Shown here: one piece after another, positions 14,452-41,488 of the stretch
How positions within the stretch are numbered: the stretch's first letter is position 1
Layout: every line of letters starts with the position of its first letter
Source of the DNA: Crassaminicella thermophila
Lineage (GTDB): Bacteria; Bacillota; Clostridia; Peptostreptococcales; Thermotaleaceae
Direction: 5' to 3'
Length of the DNA: 64,000 bases
Assembly: GCF_008152325.1 (NCBI RefSeq)
Contig: NZ_CP042243.1
Span: 1,059,026-1,123,025 of the forward strand
Position numbers and translations under genes: made by a program
The notes under the pieces: model-generated
Seen by the model: the letters and a program-made list of their open reading frames with translations, nothing else
What the model was told of the DNA's origin: nothing
Database searches by the model: none

Positions 14452-15417
14452 ATGAAAAAATTAAATATATGGCTAGTCATTTGTTTATTATTGATAGCTA
14501 TATTGGCTGGATGTTCTTCTGCAGAAAATAATAAAAATTCTAAGGAGGTTAAAAAGGAAGAACATGCTATAAAAATAGGTGTTTCTATTTCAGACTTTGA
14601 TGATGTTTGGCTTATGTATATGAAGGATGCAATGGAATCTTATGGGAAAACTTTAGGAGGAAAAGTTGAAGTGGTTTTTGTGGATGGGAAAGATGATGCA
14701 AACAAGCAGTTAGCGCAAGTAGAAAACTTTATTGCACAAGAGTTTGATGTTATTGTTGTGAATCCAGTAAATACTCAAGCAACACAGCCAATGACAGATG
14801 CTGCTTTACAAGCTGGAGTGAAATTAGTATATGTAAATAGGCTACCAGATTATTTACCAGAAGGAGTTACTTTTGTAGGATCTGATTCTGTTATAGCAGG
14901 AAATCTTCAAATGGAGTATCTAGCTGAAAAATTAAATGGAAAAGGAAATGTTGTAATTATGCAAGGATCTTTTGATAGTGAAGCAACTTATAATCGTACA
15001 GATGGCGTTAAGATGATTGCAGATAAATATCCCAATATACATATCATAAAAGTAGATACAGCTAATTTTTCAAGAGAAGAAGGGATGATGCTTATGGAGA
15101 ATTGGCTTTCTACAGGCGATCAAATAGATGCAGTTGCAGCGAATAATGATGAAATGGCTATTGGTGCAATTCAAGCGATTGAGGCTGCTGGTAAACTAGG
15201 AGAAATTCTAGTGGGAGGGATAGATGCTACACCAGAAGCACTTTCAGAAATGGAAAAAGGAAGACTTGCTTGTACTATATTTCAAGATGCAACGGGACAA
15301 GGAGAAGGAGCAATTAAAGCAGCATATAATTTAGCTATAGGAAAAAACGTTGAACAGAAAGTTTGGATACCTTTTCAGCTTGTAACGCCTGAAAATATAG
15401 ATAAATTTAAGAAATAA
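14452..15417 (+). CDS. Sugar ABC transporter substrate-binding lipoprotein
   Basis: 321 residues. Lipoprotein signal peptide with lipobox LAGC (Cys about 21), followed by a Ser/Asn/Lys-rich linker and a two-lobed type I periplasmic-binding fold of the RbsB family (IKIGVSISDFDDVWLMYMKD, FDVIVVNPVNTQATQPM, GVKLVYVNRLP, AIGAIQAIEAAGKLGEILVGG, GRLACTIFQDATGQGEGA). It would sit on the outer face of the membrane and deliver a sugar to a permease. No permease or ATPase gene follows; instead there is a broken terminator and an IS end. It must borrow a transporter encoded elsewhere or serve as a sensor. GGGGG precedes the ATG. Confidence 0.92.
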   Translation: MKKLNIWLVICLLLIAILAGCSSAENNKNSKEVKKEEHAIKIGVSISDFDDVWLMYMKDAMESYGKTLGGKVEVVFVDGKDDANKQLAQVENFIAQEFDVIVVNPVNTQATQPMTDAALQAGVKLVYVNRLPDYLPEGVTFVGSDSVIAGNLQMEYLAEKLNGKGNVVIMQGSFDSEATYNRTDGVKMIADKYPNIHIIKVDTANFSREEGMMLMENWLSTGDQIDAVAANNDEMAIGAIQAIEAAGKLGEILVGGIDATPEALSEMEKGRLACTIFQDATGQGEGAIKAAYNLAIGKNVEQKVWIPFQLVTPENIDKFKK

Positions 15418-15450
15418 TTATAAAGTAATATAGCAATATATTCTTCCCGT

Positions 15451-15473
15451 AAAAAATAAACAGTATAATCGTC
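15451..15473. repeat. Left arm of a terminator split by insertion
   Basis: These 23 bases are the reverse complement of 18295-18317 with one mismatch that would be a G-U pair. Together with TAATTA (15474-15479) as loop they rebuild a long stem with T-rich ends, fitting a bidirectional terminator between the sugar-binding protein gene and the convergent RusA gene. The two arms are now 2.8 kb apart. Confidence 0.8.
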
Positions 15474-15547
15474 TAATTAGATGATATGCTCCCTTTATGG
15501 TAGACAGTTAAAATAATGAAACTGTCGCCATGGGGGGAGTATTTTTT

Positions 15548-15685
15548 ATGGGAAGAAAAAGTAAATTTTCATATGCGGTAAAAATTTCAGCTGTTGAGGA
15601 TTATCTTTCCGCTGAACGCAGCATGACTCAAATCGTTAACGAATTAGAGATTGTAAAAAGTATGGGTTCTAAATTATCAGGCTAA
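15548..15685 (+). pseudogene. IS3-family transposase orfA remnant
   Basis: Opens with MGRKSKFSYAVKISAVEDYL then SAERSMTQIVNELEI, the standard helix-turn-helix start of IS150-type OrfA. After VK it jumps to SMGSKLSG and a stop, as if the middle of the domain (normally about 20 residues before the SMGS motif) were deleted. 45 residues compared with about 100 or more for a whole OrfA. A GGGGGGAG ribosome site precedes it. Non-functional. Confidence 0.8.
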
Positions 15686-15915
15686 TAGCCCAGAAAGCTT
15701 AATGGAGTGCCCTAAGAATAGATTTTACTCTTAATTCTAATTCTGTAATCTTTAATCTCTTATTAGTCAAACTTGTAAACTGGTGTTAAAAGAATTTATT
15801 GAATATATAAACATTAGAGGAATTATTTGGGAAATGTCGAATATACTATTTTGGAATAAATTTCTATATTTGAGCATCATAGGTATAAAGCAGAAGGGAG
15901 GCGATTATAGAAAGA

Positions 15916-16470
15916 ATGCTTATGATTTATAAAATTACTTTTATAACTGGTATTTTGTATGCTGTTACTTCTTTAGTATTGGGACATTTATTTGATGCGG
16001 TAGATATGGACTTTGATGGAGATATGCATATTCATTTTTTTACAATTTTACCTATTAAGCCTATTACTATTATTGCCTTTATTACTGTATTTGGAGGAGT
16101 AGGGATTATGTGTAGTAACAAAGGAGTAAGGCCAATTTTTACTTTTTTGATTGCTATATTCCTTGCTTATGCTATCGCCTTATTGGTTTACAGGTTTATA
16201 ATGATTCCCTTATATAAGGTACAAAATACTAGTGCTGCATCACAAAAAGAATTGATAGGACTAGATGCAGTTGTAAAATCTTCTATTATGGAAAGGGGTT
16301 TTGGACAGATAGCTTATGTAAAAAATGGGAATACATATTATTCTCCCGCAAAGCATGTGAAAGGGGAATATATAGAAGCAGGAACAAAAGTTTTTATAGT
16401 AGATATAAAAGATAATATCTATTATGTAGAAAAAAAGAATTTCTATTATGAAATAGAAGTAAATATTTAA
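15916..16470 (+). CDS. NfeD-like membrane protein (YuaF type)
   Basis: 184 residues. Transmembrane segments lie at about residues 3-23, 46-66 and 73-97; a soluble C-terminal beta-rich OB-like domain (about 112-180; ELIGLDAVVKSSIMERGFGQIAY, AGTKVFIVDI) follows. This is the architecture of short NfeD proteins that are encoded with flotillin, as in Bacillus yuaF-floT. NfeD partners are thought to assist flotillin membrane scaffolds. ATG 15916 lies 13-14 nt from GGGAGG, a long spacing; ATG 15922 is an alternative. The stop is 15 nt before floT. The pair lies inside the IS-bounded unit. Confidence 0.82.
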   Translation: MLMIYKITFITGILYAVTSLVLGHLFDAVDMDFDGDMHIHFFTILPIKPITIIAFITVFGGVGIMCSNKGVRPIFTFLIAIFLAYAIALLVYRFIMIPLYKVQNTSAASQKELIGLDAVVKSSIMERGFGQIAYVKNGNTYYSPAKHVKGEYIEAGTKVFIVDIKDNIYYVEKKNFYYEIEVNI

Positions 16471-16485
16471 AAGGAGATGAAGTAA

Positions 16486-18003
16486 ATGGGAGAATTTTTA
16501 ATACCTATAGGGATTGTAGGTGTAATTATTATTTTAGTGATTGGTGTTTTGTCTATGTGGAAAAAGGTTCCACAAGATAAAGCAATTGTTGTAACAGGAT
16601 TAAAAAAGAGAGTGATATCAGGAGGAGGGGGGCTTGTAATACCTTTATTCGAAAGAACTGACTTGATTTCACTAGAAAATATGAAGATTGATATTAGAAC
16701 AGAAAGAGCATTAACAGAGCAAGGGGTAGGCATTATTGTAGATGGGGTTACTGTCATTAAGGTAAAATCAGATGAAGAATCTATTTACTCAGCAGTAGAG
16801 CAATTTAATACAGGACGCGAAGCAGAAACTATTGAGTTTGTAAAAGAGACCGCAAAGGATGTATTAGAAGGAAAATTACGTGAGATTATTTCAAAAATGA
16901 CTGTAGAAGAAATCCATCAAGATCGAGAAAAATTTTCTTCACAGGTTCAAGAGGTAGCAGCGGTAGATCTTGCCGGAATGGGACTTGAGATAAAGGCTTT
17001 TACAATTAAAGATATTTCAGATACAAATGGATACTTAGATGCTTTAGGAAAGAAAAGAATCGCAGAAGTAAAAAGAGATGCAGAAATTGCTGAAGCTAAT
17101 GCAAGAGCTGAAAGGGATATAAAAAAAGCTCAAGCTGAAAGAGAAGCAAAAGTCAATACGGCTATTGCTTTTAAAGAAGGAGAGAAGGCAAGACTTGAAG
17201 CAGAAACGGAAATCGCAGAATTTAGCAAGAATAAGGAATTAAAGGTACAAGCATATAGAAAAGACCAGGAAACAGAAAAGGCAAAGGCTGACCTTGCTTA
17301 CGAAATTGAGGGCAATAAGGTTAGAAAAGAAGTGACTGAAACAGAAATGGCTGTAGAGCTTCTTAAAAAGGAAAGAGCTATTGAAATTGCAGAAAGAGAA
17401 GCTGCAAGACGTGAAAAAGAACTTGAAGCAAATGTTAAAAAGCAAGCAGAAGCACAAAAATATAAGGATATTCAAGAAGCTGAAGCGAGAGCTCAAGCTA
17501 TGAAATTAGAAGCAGAAGCAAAAAGATTTAAGGAAATTCAAGAAGCAGAAGCACGTGCTACAGCTATTAAGATAGAAGGGGAAGCTAAGGCTGAAGCTAT
17601 CAAATTAGAAGGGGAAGCAGAAGCGAAGGTTATTGAACAAAAAGGTATAGCAGAAGCTGAAGCAATGGCTAAGAAAGCAGAGGCCTTCAAGCAATACAAC
17701 GAAGCTGCTGTTATTCAAATGCTTGTTGAGAAATTACCTGAAATTGCAAAAAGCATTTCAGAGCCTCTTTCAAAAACAGAAAAAATTGTTATTGTGGATA
17801 ATGGAGGAGATGGAAAAAATAATGGTGCAGCTAAGGTTTCAAACTATATAAGCAGTATGATATCACAAGTTCCAGAGGTTGTAGAAGCTACAACTGGAAT
17901 CAATTTGTTAGATCTTCTTAAAGATAAAGTAGATGTAAAGCATGTAAACAAACAAGAAAAAATAGAAGAGAATGATCATTTCTTTGAGAAGGTAGAAGGT
18001 TAA
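16486..18003 (+). CDS. floT: Flotillin
   Basis: 505 residues, typical size. One N-terminal hydrophobic segment (about 5-22), a PHB/SPFH domain (about 25-200; VPQDKAIVVTGLKKRVISGGG, EGKLREIISKMTVEEIHQDR, AAVDLAGMGLEIKAFTIKDI), then a long Ala/Glu/Lys coiled coil (about 195-400) with repeated EAEA/KAEA units, and a C-terminal flotillin region (KKAEAFKQYNEAAVIQMLVEKLP, LSKTEKIVIVDNGGDG). Flotillins form scaffolds of ordered membrane domains and influence membrane fluidity and signalling. AAGGAGATG precedes ATG 16486. Cotranscribed with the upstream nfeD and followed by a hairpin. Confidence 0.95.
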   Translation: MGEFLIPIGIVGVIIILVIGVLSMWKKVPQDKAIVVTGLKKRVISGGGGLVIPLFERTDLISLENMKIDIRTERALTEQGVGIIVDGVTVIKVKSDEESIYSAVEQFNTGREAETIEFVKETAKDVLEGKLREIISKMTVEEIHQDREKFSSQVQEVAAVDLAGMGLEIKAFTIKDISDTNGYLDALGKKRIAEVKRDAEIAEANARAERDIKKAQAEREAKVNTAIAFKEGEKARLEAETEIAEFSKNKELKVQAYRKDQETEKAKADLAYEIEGNKVRKEVTETEMAVELLKKERAIEIAEREAARREKELEANVKKQAEAQKYKDIQEAEARAQAMKLEAEAKRFKEIQEAEARATAIKIEGEAKAEAIKLEGEAEAKVIEQKGIAEAEAMAKKAEAFKQYNEAAVIQMLVEKLPEIAKSISEPLSKTEKIVIVDNGGDGKNNGAAKVSNYISSMISQVPEVVEATTGINLLDLLKDKVDVKHVNKQEKIEENDHFFEKVEG

Positions 18004-18006
18004 AGT

Positions 18007-18051
18007 AAAGGCATCTCCTTAGGATAGAAATTATTCTTAGGAGGTGCCTTT
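18007..18051 (+). terminator. Terminator-like hairpin after floT
   Basis: 20-bp imperfect stem (18007-18026 with 18032-18051), loop GAAAT, one mismatch and two or three wobbles. Only a short T-run (CCTTT) follows. Confidence 0.7.
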
Positions 18052-18221
18052 GCTAATTATATTGTAGATAAATAATTTGAAAATGAACGTTAAACAAATA
18101 CATTTCCTTAACCTTTCTTTCTCTCTATTTCTTTCAGTACGTCTAATCTTATGATATTCTCATTCATTTTTTATTCTGAAAAAGTATATCAGTTTTTTGT
18201 AACTTTTCCTACATTTTCATT

Positions 18222-18260
18222 ATGCCATTGGAATATCGTAATCAGACCTTAGTAGCATAA
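18222..18260 (+). pseudogene. IS3-family transposase orfB 3' remnant
   Basis: The 12 codons MPLEYRNQTLVA followed by TAA resemble the conserved end of IS3-family OrfB (SP-EYR-Q-L-). The stop lies 34 nt before the right inverted repeat, which is the usual spacing in this IS group. Upstream codons do not continue the transposase, so only the very end survives. The region between the floT hairpin and this point shows no other coding signal. Confidence 0.6.
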
Positions 18261-18294
18261 TTTTTTACTTGTCTACTTGACAGGGAGCAGTTCA

Positions 18295-18317
18295 GATGAT
18301 TATACTGTTTATTTTTT
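18295..18317. repeat. Right arm of the split terminator
   Basis: Complement of 15451-15473 (22 of 23 positions; the odd one makes a G-U pair). It ends in a T-run on the plus strand, 8 nt before the stop of the convergent RusA gene. Confidence 0.8.
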
Positions 18318-18325
18318 ATAAAGAA

Positions 18326-18736
18326 TTATGAATTGATTGGTTCAATAGAATAACTTACTTTATATTTACTACATTCATATAGTTCTATTTCAATTCTAGG
18401 ATTTTCTTTGTCAATATAATCAAATAGCAAAACAGGTTTTAGTTGTTTATCATTTTCGATGATTCCGCTTTTTTCAATACCGTCGCAGATACTTTTAGGA
18501 TAATTGTGTAAATCACCCATTCTACGATTTTGGAAATAAAGCTTTATAATTGTAATGATACTTCCCTTTAAAGGCTCACCATTATATTGCTGGTTAATGT
18601 ATCCTGCAATTTTATTTTCGTATGCAATGTATTTACTGTGTTTACCTTGCTTAGGCATCCAAATATGTCCATGTATATTTTTAAGTTTAAAATTAGATTT
18701 GCTAATGGGTTTACCTGGTACAGTTATTTTTATCAT
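18326..18736 (-). CDS. RusA-like Holliday junction resolvase
   Basis: 136 residues from ATG 18736 (GGAGGTG upstream). The N terminus ITVPGKPISKSN and the motif GDLHNYPKSICDGIEKSG followed by IIENDKQL match RusA, where Asp residues in D--N--K---D-L and the D in -DD-Q- coordinate magnesium. Here the first Asp, the DG Asp and the ND Asp are present. RusA enzymes resolve four-way DNA junctions and are mostly of prophage origin; no other phage gene is nearby, so this may be a domesticated or stray copy. It was originally convergent with the sugar-binding protein gene across the split terminator. Confidence 0.78.
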   Translation of the reverse strand: MIKITVPGKPISKSNFKLKNIHGHIWMPKQGKHSKYIAYENKIAGYINQQYNGEPLKGSIITIIKLYFQNRRMGDLHNYPKSICDGIEKSGIIENDKQLKPVLLFDYIDKENPRIEIELYECSKYKVSYSIEPINS

Positions 18737-18863
18737 TTTTACACCTCCACAGGATATTCTAACATATTCACTGCATATAATAAATTAATAAAATATTTTC
18801 ATTGTATTATAAAAAATTCATAAATGGAAATAATGCATATAAAAGCTTTTAGGATGTGATTAT

Positions 18864-19385
18864 ATGTTAGAAGGTCTATTTAAGAGATGCTTTGTTTTTA
18901 TAGCTATATTAATTTTCATAGAGAGGTTTATTTTTGGATTTACAATTGTACAAGGCATGTCTATGCAGCCTACACTTCATAATAATGATAAATTATTTAT
19001 TAATAAGATTATATATTTATTTACAAAACCTAAGTATGGAGATATTATTATCTTTCATCCTCCTATTGAAGAAAGAAAAAATGAATTATTTATTAAACGT
19101 GTAATTGCTGTAGAAGGGGATGTATTTTTAATAAAAGAAGGTAGATTATATATTAATGGTAAAGAAATAAATGAATCATATATTTGCAATGAGGAATATA
19201 AAGAAAGATTATATCAAGTAACTAGTGGAAAGGTACCAAAAGGTATGGTATTTGTAATGGGAGATAATAGAAATGATAGCAATGATAGCAGATGCTTTGG
19301 ATTCGTTCCGACGAATAATATAGAAGGAAAAGCGGATATTCGAATATTACCGATAGATTCTATACAAGTTTTTTCTATCCAATAG
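18864..19385 (+). CDS. Type I signal peptidase, second copy
   Basis: 173 residues. N-terminal transmembrane segment (about 6-26), GMSMQPTL with the catalytic Ser near 36, LFIKRVIAVEGD with the catalytic Lys near 80, GDNRNDSNDSRCFGFV. It is diverged from the copy at 5676 in the middle region. The ribosome site is weak (AGGATG). It is divergent from the RusA gene and shares a terminator with the hydantoinase gene. Two or more type I signal peptidases are usual in spore formers; a condition-specific role is possible but not shown. Confidence 0.93.
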   Translation: MLEGLFKRCFVFIAILIFIERFIFGFTIVQGMSMQPTLHNNDKLFINKIIYLFTKPKYGDIIIFHPPIEERKNELFIKRVIAVEGDVFLIKEGRLYINGKEINESYICNEEYKERLYQVTSGKVPKGMVFVMGDNRNDSNDSRCFGFVPTNNIEGKADIRILPIDSIQVFSIQ

Positions 19386-19409
19386 AAAAGGGAGATTTTT
19401 CTCCCTTTT
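19386..19409. terminator. Bidirectional terminator
   Basis: AAAAGGGAGA (19386-19395) and TCTCCCTTTT (19400-19409) with a TTTT loop. It serves the signal peptidase gene and the convergent hydantoinase gene. Confidence 0.88.
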
Positions 19410-20778
19410 ATTTACGACCTTTGCATTTTATAAATTGACCATGGCCTGGTGTACCTAAAAACTGACCATCTTTATATACAAGTTTACCTCTGCTGAAAGT
19501 CATTACTGGATATCCTTTAAGTTCTATACCTTCCCAAATAGTATGATCAACATCAGAATGCATATTTTCCTTAGAAACAACAAACTTTTTATTTGGATCA
19601 TAAATTACAATATCTGCATCACTTCCTGCTGCGATTGTACCTTTTTGAGGTGCACAACCAAATATTTTTGCTACATTTGTAGAACAAACTTCTACAACTT
19701 TATTAAATGAAATACGTCCTTTATTTGCTTCGCTTAACATATATGGGTAAAGATTTTCTATGCCCATACAACCATTTGGAATTTTTGTAAAATCATCTTT
19801 TCCCCAATCTTTTTCATAGCTTTGGAATGGACAATGATCAGTTGCAACAGTTTGAATACTACCATTAAGAATACCTTTCCAAAGTGCTTCTTGACTTTCT
19901 TTCCCTTTTATTGGAGGAGAGCAAACAAAGTTTCTTCCATCTTCACGTTTATATACTTCATTTGTAAAGTGTAAATATTGTGGGCAAGTTTCTGCATAAA
20001 TTTCATACCCTTCATTACGTGCTTTAGTTACTTCTTCTAAACCTTCTTTGTTTGCAAGATGAACAATATAAAGAGGAGCATCAAAAGCTTTTGCCCAGTG
20101 AATAGCGCGTTTATTTGCTTCCGCTTCTACAAATTCTGGACGACTTAAGTAATGATACCAAGCAGATGTTTTTCCTTCAGAAAGGAATTTTTCTATACGC
20201 ATATCAATTAAATCTGGATTTTCAGCATGTACAGCAATTAAAGCACCAATATCTTTTGATTTTTCTAATGCTTTTGCAAGTACACCATCGTCTACCATCA
20301 AACCTTCTTTTTTATATACCATGAAAAGTTTAAAGCTAGGAACACCATATTCTACAGATTCTTTCATTTCTTCTAATATTTCAGGTGTTAAATCTGTAAT
20401 TGCAGTGTGAAAAGAATAGTCAACACATGCTTGTGGATCACAAATGGTGCGTCTTCCTTCAACAGCTTCAATAAGACCTTGACCTTTTCTTTGAATAACA
20501 AAATCGAATACGGTTGTTACACCACCACAAGCTGCAGCACGAGTTCCAGCTTCATAGCTATCGGCAGATGTAGTTCCACCAAAAGGCATTTCTAAATGAG
20601 TATGTGCATCAATAGCTCCTGGTAATACATATTTTCCAGAAGCATCAACTAATTTTGCTCCTTCTGTTTGAGTAATATTTTTGCCAATCATAATAATTTT
20701 ACCATCTTCAACAGCAATATCAGCTTTATAAGTATCTGTAGCAGTAATAATAGTACCATTTTTAATAACTAAATCCAT
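19408..20778 (-). CDS. hydA: Dihydropyrimidinase / D-hydantoinase
   Basis: 456 residues, amidohydrolase fold. The dinuclear zinc ligands are visible: DAHTHLEMPFGG (two His near residue 57), SFKLFMVYK with the carboxylated Lys near 148, AVHAEN (His), YIVHLANKEG (His) and ATDHCPF (Asp). It opens the ring of dihydropyrimidines or 5-substituted hydantoins. The start has GGAGGAATGACATT before the ATG. A 22-bp palindrome lies 37-58 nt upstream. The gene follows the NCS1 permease on the same strand, so permease and hydrolase form an import-and-hydrolyse pair. No carbamoylase is in the window, so the product's further path is not shown. Allantoinase is less likely given the sequence pattern. Confidence 0.92.
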   Translation of the reverse strand: MDLVIKNGTIITATDTYKADIAVEDGKIIMIGKNITQTEGAKLVDASGKYVLPGAIDAHTHLEMPFGGTTSADSYEAGTRAAACGGVTTVFDFVIQRKGQGLIEAVEGRRTICDPQACVDYSFHTAITDLTPEILEEMKESVEYGVPSFKLFMVYKKEGLMVDDGVLAKALEKSKDIGALIAVHAENPDLIDMRIEKFLSEGKTSAWYHYLSRPEFVEAEANKRAIHWAKAFDAPLYIVHLANKEGLEEVTKARNEGYEIYAETCPQYLHFTNEVYKREDGRNFVCSPPIKGKESQEALWKGILNGSIQTVATDHCPFQSYEKDWGKDDFTKIPNGCMGIENLYPYMLSEANKGRISFNKVVEVCSTNVAKIFGCAPQKGTIAAGSDADIVIYDPNKKFVVSKENMHSDVDHTIWEGIELKGYPVMTFSRGKLVYKDGQFLGTPGHGQFIKCKGRK

Positions 20779-20814
20779 AATGTCATTCCTCCTTAACGTA
20801 TTGATTATTATTTT

Positions 20815-20836
20815 AATTGCTGTATATACAGCAATT
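20815..20836. promoter_or_regulatory. Perfect 22-bp palindrome upstream of hydA
   Basis: Half-site AATTGCTGTAT repeated in inverted orientation with no gap; the centre reads TGTATATACA. It lies in the 111-nt gap between permease stop and hydA start. GT-TATAC cores of this kind are bound by HutC-type GntR repressors and similar dimers. No terminator-like T-run follows, so an operator is more likely than a terminator. Identity of the binder is unknown. Confidence 0.55.
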
Positions 20837-20850
20837 TATTTTCGTTATGA

Positions 20851-20880
20851 AAGAGGGTTCAGCATATACCGATCCCTCTT
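20851..20880 (-). terminator. Weak hairpin between permease and hydA
   Basis: AAGAGGG (20851-20857) can pair with CCCTCTT (20874-20880) over a 16-nt loop, just after the permease stop in transcription direction. There is no long U-run, so it may only reduce read-through into hydA. Confidence 0.35.
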
Positions 20881-20889
20881 ATAAAAGTA

Positions 20890-22419
20890 TTAAGCATTTT
20901 CAGGGTTTTGTACTCTTTCAGTAATCTGCAATTCTTCTTCAGCTGAAACAAGAGAGGAAGTATCATTTTTCATTAAAACAGGATAAATAACAATTGCAAA
21001 AAGGAATCCTATTATCCAACCGTTTTCAGCAAAGAAACTTAAACTAGGAATTACTTTTCCAAGTAATGGAAGAATTGCGGCGAGTATCCATGTATATACT
21101 GCTTTTTTATTAAAACCATTATTATACCAATAACGGCTTTCTTCACCTTTGAAAAGATCATCAAGATCAATAACCTTTTTACGATAGATATAGTAATCAG
21201 CAATATACATACCAGCAAGAGGGCCTAAAAATAGACCATAAGTTCCCAACCATCCAAAGATATATGCACCAGCACTTGAGAGAAGTTTCCAAGGCATTAT
21301 GGCAACACCAGCAAAACCAGTTATTAGTGCACCTGTTCTATAAGAAATTTTTTGTGGGTTTAAGTTAGAAATACCGTTTGCTGGAGCAACAACATTTGCA
21401 GCTATATTTGTGGTTAATGTAGCAACAGCAATACCAATTGCTCCAAGTAAAGCGGCAATAGGACTACCGATATTTGCAACAACTGCTACAGGATCCCAAA
21501 GAAATTCACCAAAAATAATACCAGTTGCACCTGTAACGAAAACACCGACAAAGGCAAATGCTGCCATTGTTGTTGGTAAGCCAAGTAACTGACCTCTAAA
21601 CTGATCTTTTTGACTTTTTGCATAACGGCTAAAATCAGGAATGTTTAATGCAAGGGTAGACCAGAAAGCAATATTTGCAGTTAAGCCTGATAAGAATATT
21701 TTCCAAAATTGGCCTGGTTTATAAGTTGCAGGCATATTTAAGACATCACTGACACTTTTACCTAGTGCATGAACATTTTTTAAAGCCCAAATCATAAGTC
21801 CTAAAGAAAGAACACCAAGGATAGGAGCTCCCCATGATTCCATGAACTTGATTGCTTCTTCTCCTTTGTAAGCAATCCATACATTTAAAGCCCAGAAGAT
21901 AAAGAATGATACCCAAATACCACCTGACCAAGCAGCCCACGTAGGACTCATAACACCGATAACAGCATTTAAAGCGCCGCCACCGATCCAACATTGAATA
22001 CCGAACCATCCTGCAGCTATAACTGCACGAGCAATTGAAGCAATATGAGAACCTTTAATACCAAAAGCCAAGCGAGCGAAAACAGGATATGGAATTCCAT
22101 ATTTTGTACCTGCATGAGAATTTAGCTGCATAGGGATTAAAACGATTAAGTTCCCTAAGCATATATTCAAGATTGCCTGCCACCAAGAAAGACCAGCAGC
22201 CATTAATCCAGATGCCATCATATATGTAGGAATACAAACAGACATACCAACCCATAAAGCAGCAATGTTATAAGTTTTCCAAGTTCTTTCCGACAATTTA
22301 GTTGGTGCTAAATCATCATTATAGTATACGTTATTTTTCAAATTATTACGTGCACTTTCAGTTAATTCAAAAAGGCCATTTACTTCCCGTTGCGTTCGAA
22401 TCTTAATATTTTCTGCCAT
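20890..22419 (-). CDS. NCS1 family permease (hydantoin/allantoin/cytosine type)
   Basis: 509 residues with about 12 transmembrane segments. The N-terminal cytoplasmic motif (NDDLAPTKLSERTWKTYN-AALWVGMSV) is the hallmark of NCS1 transporters such as Mhp1 and PucI; GLSWWQAILNICLGNLIVLIP, GIQCWIGGGALNA and NIPDFSRYAKSQKDQFRGQ are also conserved. Sodium- or proton-coupled import of a nucleobase-like compound; pairing with hydantoinase suggests hydantoins, dihydropyrimidines or allantoin. GGGGGTG precedes ATG 22419. A sigma54-type promoter lies about 133 nt upstream of the ATG. Confidence 0.92.
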   Translation of the reverse strand: MAENIKIRTQREVNGLFELTESARNNLKNNVYYNDDLAPTKLSERTWKTYNIAALWVGMSVCIPTYMMASGLMAAGLSWWQAILNICLGNLIVLIPMQLNSHAGTKYGIPYPVFARLAFGIKGSHIASIARAVIAAGWFGIQCWIGGGALNAVIGVMSPTWAAWSGGIWVSFFIFWALNVWIAYKGEEAIKFMESWGAPILGVLSLGLMIWALKNVHALGKSVSDVLNMPATYKPGQFWKIFLSGLTANIAFWSTLALNIPDFSRYAKSQKDQFRGQLLGLPTTMAAFAFVGVFVTGATGIIFGEFLWDPVAVVANIGSPIAALLGAIGIAVATLTTNIAANVVAPANGISNLNPQKISYRTGALITGFAGVAIMPWKLLSSAGAYIFGWLGTYGLFLGPLAGMYIADYYIYRKKVIDLDDLFKGEESRYWYNNGFNKKAVYTWILAAILPLLGKVIPSLSFFAENGWIIGFLFAIVIYPVLMKNDTSSLVSAEEELQITERVQNPENA

Positions 22420-41252: not shown

Positions 41253-41279
41253 TTGATAGGATGAAACAAGGAAAATAAA

Positions 41280-41437
41280 AAAATAGGTGTCGTAAGACTT
41301 AATAAGGAAGTTCGGTGAAATTCCGACACAGCCCCCGCTACTGTAAGTGAGGATGAAATCGAAAAATGTCACCTGTAGAATACAGGGAAGACATCGAGAG
41401 TAAGTTGATTCACAAGTCAGGAGACTTGCCTATTTTA
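41280..41437 (+). promoter_or_regulatory. Cobalamin riboswitch
   Basis: Conserved core segments in order: AAGTTCGGTGAAATTCCGAC (41308-41327), then CACAGCCCCCGCTACTGTAA, GTGAGGATGAAATC, TGTCACC with CAGGGAAGACATCGAGAG, and the B12 box GTCAGGAGACTTGCC (41416-41430). Outer P1 stem AAAATAGG (41280-41287) with CCTATTTT (41429-41436). It precedes the cbiA-to-hemL operon, so adenosylcobalamin should shut off corrin and early tetrapyrrole synthesis together. Confidence 0.95.
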
Positions 41438-41488
41438 TGCGTTATGTACCTTCGGTGGGAAGGGAACAGGAACTGAAACTTGTTCGTG

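Follow-up and report, generated by a model that had tools for sequence, protein, structure and literature searches.

A complete nfeD-floT operon enclosed by the ends of a decayed IS3-family element inside a split terminator of Crassaminicella thermophila

How does an operon for a membrane-scaffold protein come to lie between the two ends of an insertion sequence (IS)? The question is raised by a locus in the 3.08 Mb, two-contig genome of Crassaminicella thermophila (G000), which we analyzed in a window of 64,000 nucleotides (G000:C1:1059026-1123025; unprefixed positions are those of the window). A complete two-gene flotillin operon is enclosed there by both surviving ends of a decayed IS3-family element (Table 1). 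Although the structure is genuine, it has the look of an isolated relic rather than of one member in a family of mobile flotillin cassettes.

Table 1. Parts of the locus, with window coordinates and the evidence for each.
Feature	Coordinates	Strand	Evidence
Sugar-binding (periplasmic-binding-type) protein gene, left neighbor	14452..15417	+	Pfam Peripla_BP_4
Left arm of the split bidirectional terminator	15450..15474	+	25 nt, 96% complementary to 18294-18318; joined flanks fold
Left IS3-family remnant: left inverted repeat, start hairpin and decayed orfA start	15482..15745 (right border approximate)	+	Alignment to complete IS copies; left-end pattern
orfA remnant, 45 codons, the first 35 alignable in frame	15548..15682	+	Pairwise OrfA alignment; weak Pfam match
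Complete nfeD-floT transcription unit, including upstream region and terminator	15788..18051	+	Homologous to DNA of relatives between 15787/15788 and about 18045; terminator stem read from sequence
nfeD-like (YuaF-type) gene	15916..16470	+	Weak Pfam NfeD match below cut-off; place before floT
floT, flotillin with SPFH domain	16486..18003	+	Pfam Band_7 and Flot
Stretch without clear relatives, with short minus-strand frame MNENIIRLDVLKEIERKKG	18052..18224	.	Short weak matches only
Right IS remnant: orfB tail and right inverted repeat	18225..18294	+	Alignment to L248, last 25 bases identical
Right arm of the split terminator	18294..18318	+	25-nt complementarity to left arm; joined-flank fold
rusA, convergent right neighbor	18326..18736	-	Pfam RusA

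Direct reading bore out the inverted IS ends reported in a preliminary description of this DNA. The left end, TGATATGCTCCCTTTATGGTAGACA at 15482, matches the reverse complement of the right end, TGAACTGCTCCCTGTCAAGTAGACA, which finishes at 18294, in 19 of 25 positions; the terminal repeats are of the TG...CA form and the two ends stand in correct mutual orientation. What is left of transposase coding in the window amounts to two coding tips, the start of orfA and the tail of orfB. The 45-codon orfA frame described earlier is present, and its first 35 codons only could be aligned in frame to the OrfA of a complete IS (14/35 identical, pairwise E 2e-08); its match to Pfam HTH_Tnp_1 (E 0.001, 19.6 bits) stays under the cut-off of 24.1. 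The frame is lost after about codon 35, and frameshifted DNA similarity to IS interiors extends to about 15745. At the other side, the 70 bp of the right remnant align to a complete IS over its final orfB codons and its right end, in the orientation claimed, the window ending in PLEYRNQTLVA and the relative in PIEYRTQTLVA, each followed by a stop codon. In this alignment, the remnant is 8 nt shorter than the corresponding part of the complete copy L248. The window's right end is closest to that of L248 and its left end to that of another copy, L245. The OrfB of L248 scored 291 bits against NCBIfam transpos_IS3 (cut-off 160) and its OrfA 74 bits, below it; through such complete relatives, the window ends are assigned to a group of the IS3 family, the family named at the outset. 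The IS in the window is dead: no transposase remains, and the element is unable to move itself.

Several smaller features accompany these remnants. The left IS end (15482-15545) can form a hairpin right before the orfA start, which might silence orfA in read-through transcripts. A TTGACA in the right IS end and a TATACT in the terminator arm, 18 nt apart (18277-18306), give an 11/12 promoter-like match directed into rusA antisense, in a scan that returned 14 such sites where 11.6 are expected by chance. For the source of 18052-18224, BLAST against the fetched loci and a family search gave short weak matches only; its minus-strand frame follows promoter-like sequence, and the same searches found no relative of it.

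The outer arms are what ties the two IS ends together. When the flanks are joined, they fold, on each strand, into a single long hairpin (-31.6 and -30.0 kcal/mol), as claimed for a single bidirectional terminator; 300 base shuffles of the plus strand gave a mean of -11.5 kcal/mol (sd 2.8, lowest -22.9). An 18-base arm, with up to three mismatches allowed, occurs at two places in the window, itself and the opposite arm, against a chance mean of 0.18, and two places were likewise reached in 1 of 100 shuffles. GATGA is found at both borders as reported (15480-15484 and 18295-18299), and the target duplication matches over 2 bp only, readable as a GAT duplication on the assumption that the left border has lost one T. 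Because the arms pair across the whole unit, both outer ends most simply arrived in one insertion, into the loop of a bidirectional terminator. The same complementarity disfavors an in situ model, in which a separate IS landed on each side of a resident operon. Joint arrival, common to the two histories first proposed for the locus, is thus upheld by the arms, which do not separate arrival as a unit from a later exchange of the interior. The comparison with close relatives recommended there revealed no empty site, since in each of the 12 relatives, compared by eye and with window proteins in tblastn, the DNA downstream of rusA is unlike that of the window; rusA and sipP are adjacent in most relatives examined. 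No relative examined carried nfeD-floT at this place without IS ends, and the ends did not prove unrelated to IS3, so that on both counts the preliminary description held.

The group to which these ends are assigned usually targets the loops of terminator-like hairpins, which are predicted to be terminators from their A-runs, T-runs and fold energies; a general terminator scan reported none of the hairpins of the flank tests. In 14 copies with both ends (the window, L011, L012, L013 and L263 being excluded), duplex energy averaged -16.25 kcal/mol for the true pairs of left and right flanks and -7.79 for swapped ones; the observed total was reached in 0 of 20,000 permutations. With the window, L011 and L012 added (17 pairs, L263 and L013 excluded), 14 pairs outscored 15 or all 16 of their swaps; among the weaker ones, L267 beat 13, and L258 and L260 only 10. 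The strongest pair of all those compared was that of the window. Target duplications of 3 or 4 bp accompany 12 of the 14 other copies. At L011 and L012 the flanks form hairpins, not clearly terminators, that immediately precede copies of a 301-aa gene. Short IS remnants or copies lie in a hairpin directly upstream of this gene at these two loci and near 759948, 2482811 and 2979147 of G000:C1 (L283, L284 and L285); its product begins MPRCARVKTE or MPRTARVKSE, and we take it to resemble Y1-type transposases.

Left ends of the group are present in 41 of 297 genomes of the order. Ten occur in C. thermophila, the window's counted in: six belong to longer copies, five of which have both ends (1719-1730 bp), and three more are short remnants. 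These resident copies are of another subtype than the window remnant (72-74% over about 125-155 bp), whose ends fit a subtype of 1675-1677 bp found in other families of the order. Some palindromes, each about 66 bp long and built of the IS left end (L171/L190, G010:C14:1138808-1138873; L273; and L282, which sits between terminator-like arms), look like MITE derivatives of the same group. A stretch of a Terrisporobacter plasmid (NZ_CP154627.1:12478-12610), under a hypothetical gene, matches the left end and its outside arm (window 15450-15586) at 76.6% over 137 bases.

The interior is nfeD-floT, as had been stated. FloT passes the cut-offs of Pfam Band_7 and Flot and misses the NCBIfam FloT equivalog (442.9 vs 700 bits), and the product of the upstream gene scores 19.2 bits against Pfam NfeD (cut-off 29.1) and is NfeD-like by place and length only. 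A weak NfeD match is common among YuaF-type partners, according to the available part of an earlier survey (PMC2636767). Homology to relatives starts at 15787/15788, spans the upstream region and both genes, and stops at the floT terminator at about 18045: the cargo is a single, entire transcription unit. Purifying selection acts on both genes (dN/dS against three relatives 0.07-0.08 for floT and 0.15-0.29 for nfeD). Today nfeD-floT is probably an ordinary operon of the host that has a control region and a terminator of its own and is seated in a former terminator loop. Elsewhere in the window, a cobalamin riboswitch was recognized at 41268-41447 (+, 115.3 bits).

The nearest floT relatives belong to the same family as C. 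thermophila. FloT is 91.3-92.2% identical to its counterparts in three genomes of genus g8, and RpoB 91.2-92.9% (the RpoB of G012 was not found). Because the identity of FloT resembles that of RpoB, we read floT as ancestral to this lineage; a foreign origin is unsupported, as the two proteins agree in divergence. The comparison of FloT with core genes proposed earlier, carried out as pairwise identities, thus has FloT tracking RpoB and offers no apparent sign of nfeD-floT traveling between species as an IS passenger. A floT match was absent from G007, also of genus g8. The fit of nfeD is worse: its identity to G012 and G014 is 83.2% in C. thermophila and 81.7-82.8% in G015, values that would speak against a purely vertical reading. 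At synonymous sites, nfeD (window 15916-16470) diverges from G015 by 0.32, about half of the 0.62-0.69 to G012 and G014, and floT has no such difference. In G012 and G014 (L044 and L045), nfeD-floT precedes a preT-like gene, preA and an NCS1 transporter gene, in the order preT-preA-transporter. The window has an 87%-identical NCS1 transporter 2.9 kb from floT, past rusA and sipP, and preA about 58 kb upstream. Given the transporter near floT here and the adjoining gene order in G012 and G014, the pair may have moved a short way only. Within 16486-22419, the transporter and a dihydropyrimidinase lie near floT, arranged otherwise than in L044 and L045.

Whether such cassettes recur was addressed by surveys of floT loci and of IS ends. 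A search for other nfeD-floT pairs with ends of this kind, advised in the preliminary description, came back empty: among 116 floT segments (1,165,027 bases, some loci included twice and many with a flank of just 1.5 kb), only that of the window had both IS ends, and none of the 115 others carried the two. Single left-end-like matches occurred in few segments, and the best of them (L142) was rejected, as the rest of the end is absent and it looks like a hairpin of its own. Neither a second floT nor a further copy of the whole unit was found in G000. A plasmid search with the whole unit returned four records with partial matches only, of which floT and the left end each account for two. When left ends were surveyed with up to two candidates scored per genome, at least 52 candidates were obtained; 38 of the 50 outside G000 and two further ones were taken, and L276 was dropped from these 40 since its left end is not recognizable. 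The remaining 39 loci comprised ten complete IS, one internally deleted copy (L279), one shell with other transposase-like DNA (L263), five loci cut off by a contig end at most 0.5 kb away, and 22 whose fetched stretch (about 3 to 5.8 kb) had no recognizable right end of the complete-IS kind; several of these 22 are 66-bp MITE-like copies. The interior of L263 has matches of 30-35% to the OrfA and OrfB of the group on the opposite strand, its other frames having been judged by eye. L274, where a distant sequence is complementary to the left flank, yet no right end is present, was left out of the counts. Right ends, surveyed with up to three candidates scored per genome, gave 12 loci outside G000, namely ten with transposase similarity (L326 with an OrfA fragment only), a deleted copy of about 200 bp (L329) and one locus at a contig end (L331). 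Non-transposase cargo between two recognized ends was seen in none of the 39 left-end and 12 right-end loci examined (stretches of up to 5.8 kb). Since no other floT segment has both ends and no other shell among the loci examined has cargo, a recurring flotillin cassette is unlikely.

Which history, then, led to this arrangement? We favor, with a probability of about 0.48, just short of even, a composite of two IS copies in the same orientation around nfeD-floT that moved into the terminator loop and later lost the inner parts of both IS. An IS3-family element of the loop-favoring group would have brought both surviving ends into the terminator between the sugar-binding protein gene and rusA in one transposition. 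The moving unit would already have been a composite transposon, IS - nfeD-floT - IS, and the inner part of each copy would have been lost afterwards. What remained would be the intact operon, preceded by the left end plus orfA start and followed by the orfB tail plus right end. The operon would thus have been present at insertion, two IS copies would have been involved, and the donor would have been of the same lineage. This history is supported by the decay of the IS remnants while the cargo was conserved, and the matching outer arms speak against separate insertions beside a resident operon. Both ends with their orientation, the IS3 assignment of complete relatives, the usual target of the group, a cargo that is one entire transcription unit and the RpoB-like divergence of FloT also count in its favor. 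A precedent for a terminator-targeting IS moving a metabolic gene is TnSha1/IS1272, in the portion of that report at hand (PMC4923244). Against it count the two further deletions needed, the stretch 18052-18224, which it does not explain, and the imperfect target duplication. Only one outer end is left of each putative flanking copy, other DNA can come to fill a shell of this group, as L263 indicates, and the surveyed shells had no other cargo. As no second floT copy in the genome, no empty site in the 12 relatives and no donor scar were found, we infer whole-unit transposition rather than demonstrate it.

The strongest competitor, which we regard as a serious though lesser candidate, is that the terminator first received a solitary IS, whose interior nfeD-floT later replaced in situ by illegitimate or homologous recombination. 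The same end state and the same matched arms are predicted. That interiors can be exchanged is indicated by L263, decayed IS copies are frequent in our sample, and 18052-18224 is extra DNA of neither IS nor operon origin. On the other hand, the cargo is cleanly one transcription unit, and no border of a second mobile element was recognized around nfeD-floT. Ranking the composite history above interior replacement is a judgement and not a measurement.

It is improbable, by comparison, that the locus is a working mobile cassette that complete IS copies could mobilize in trans. The mobile insertion cassettes (MIC231 and kin) resemble the window in having passenger genes between IS ends and lacking a transposase, and a cognate transposase can activate them, as far as the accessible portions of two reports go (PMC3129680 and PMC2266710 for the structure, PMC3129680 for activation). 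The window likewise has both ends, passenger genes and no transposase, and its genome holds complete copies of the same group, though of another subtype. However, recurrent copies are lacking, the unit being single in the genome and absent from the 115 other floT segments; the ends of the resident copies differ from those of the window; the target duplication is imperfect; and the window offers one decayed, only hypothetically mobile example bounded by IS3-family ends. That chance or an assembly artefact produced sequences merely resembling an IS insertion is barely credible, for although weak inverted repeats are frequent in AT-rich regions (17 pairs listed), the arm match is far above chance and both ends, rightly oriented, match complete IS copies of other genomes.

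Among known systems, TnSha1/IS1272 of Staphylococcus (IS1182 family) also combines a hairpin-targeting IS, with several of the hairpins confirmed as terminators, and an ordinary chromosomal metabolic gene, fabI. It differs in IS family, in having kept its transposase, in partly deleting the hairpin without duplication, and in occupying many sites, as described in the part of PMC4923244 available, whereas the window has IS3-family ends, a loop insertion, no transposase and one site, and most copies of its group have duplications of 3-4 bp. Within the IS3 family, IS1397 and ISKpn1 insert specifically into palindromic sequences as well; their targets are REP or palindromic units (PMC1525189, in part), those of the window's group terminator-like hairpins of varied sequence. 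Word searches, mostly outside subscription journals, returned no recognizable description of terminator-loop targeting by IS3-family elements. The yuaF-yuaG (floT) SPFH2-NfeD operons resemble the window in gene order and in the weak conservation of the NfeD-type partner; an argument is made for SPFH operons having been transferred laterally, and no IS shell is described, the word stem "transpos" being absent, in the text of PMC2636767 as available.

The locus is a scar: a membrane-scaffold operon has come to lie at a site made ready by a terminator-seeking IS. We consider it unlikely, if worth stating, that IS3-family elements drawn to terminator loops tend to enclose transcription units in their entirety, nfeD-floT being a captured complete operon moved in this manner; the proposal is made because such IS settle at operon borders without breaking genes. 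If it is true, terminator-targeting IS would be operon shufflers. The locus also exposes an IS3-family group residing mostly in terminator-like loops, a target preference by which genes are spared and which might help to account for the movement of operons.
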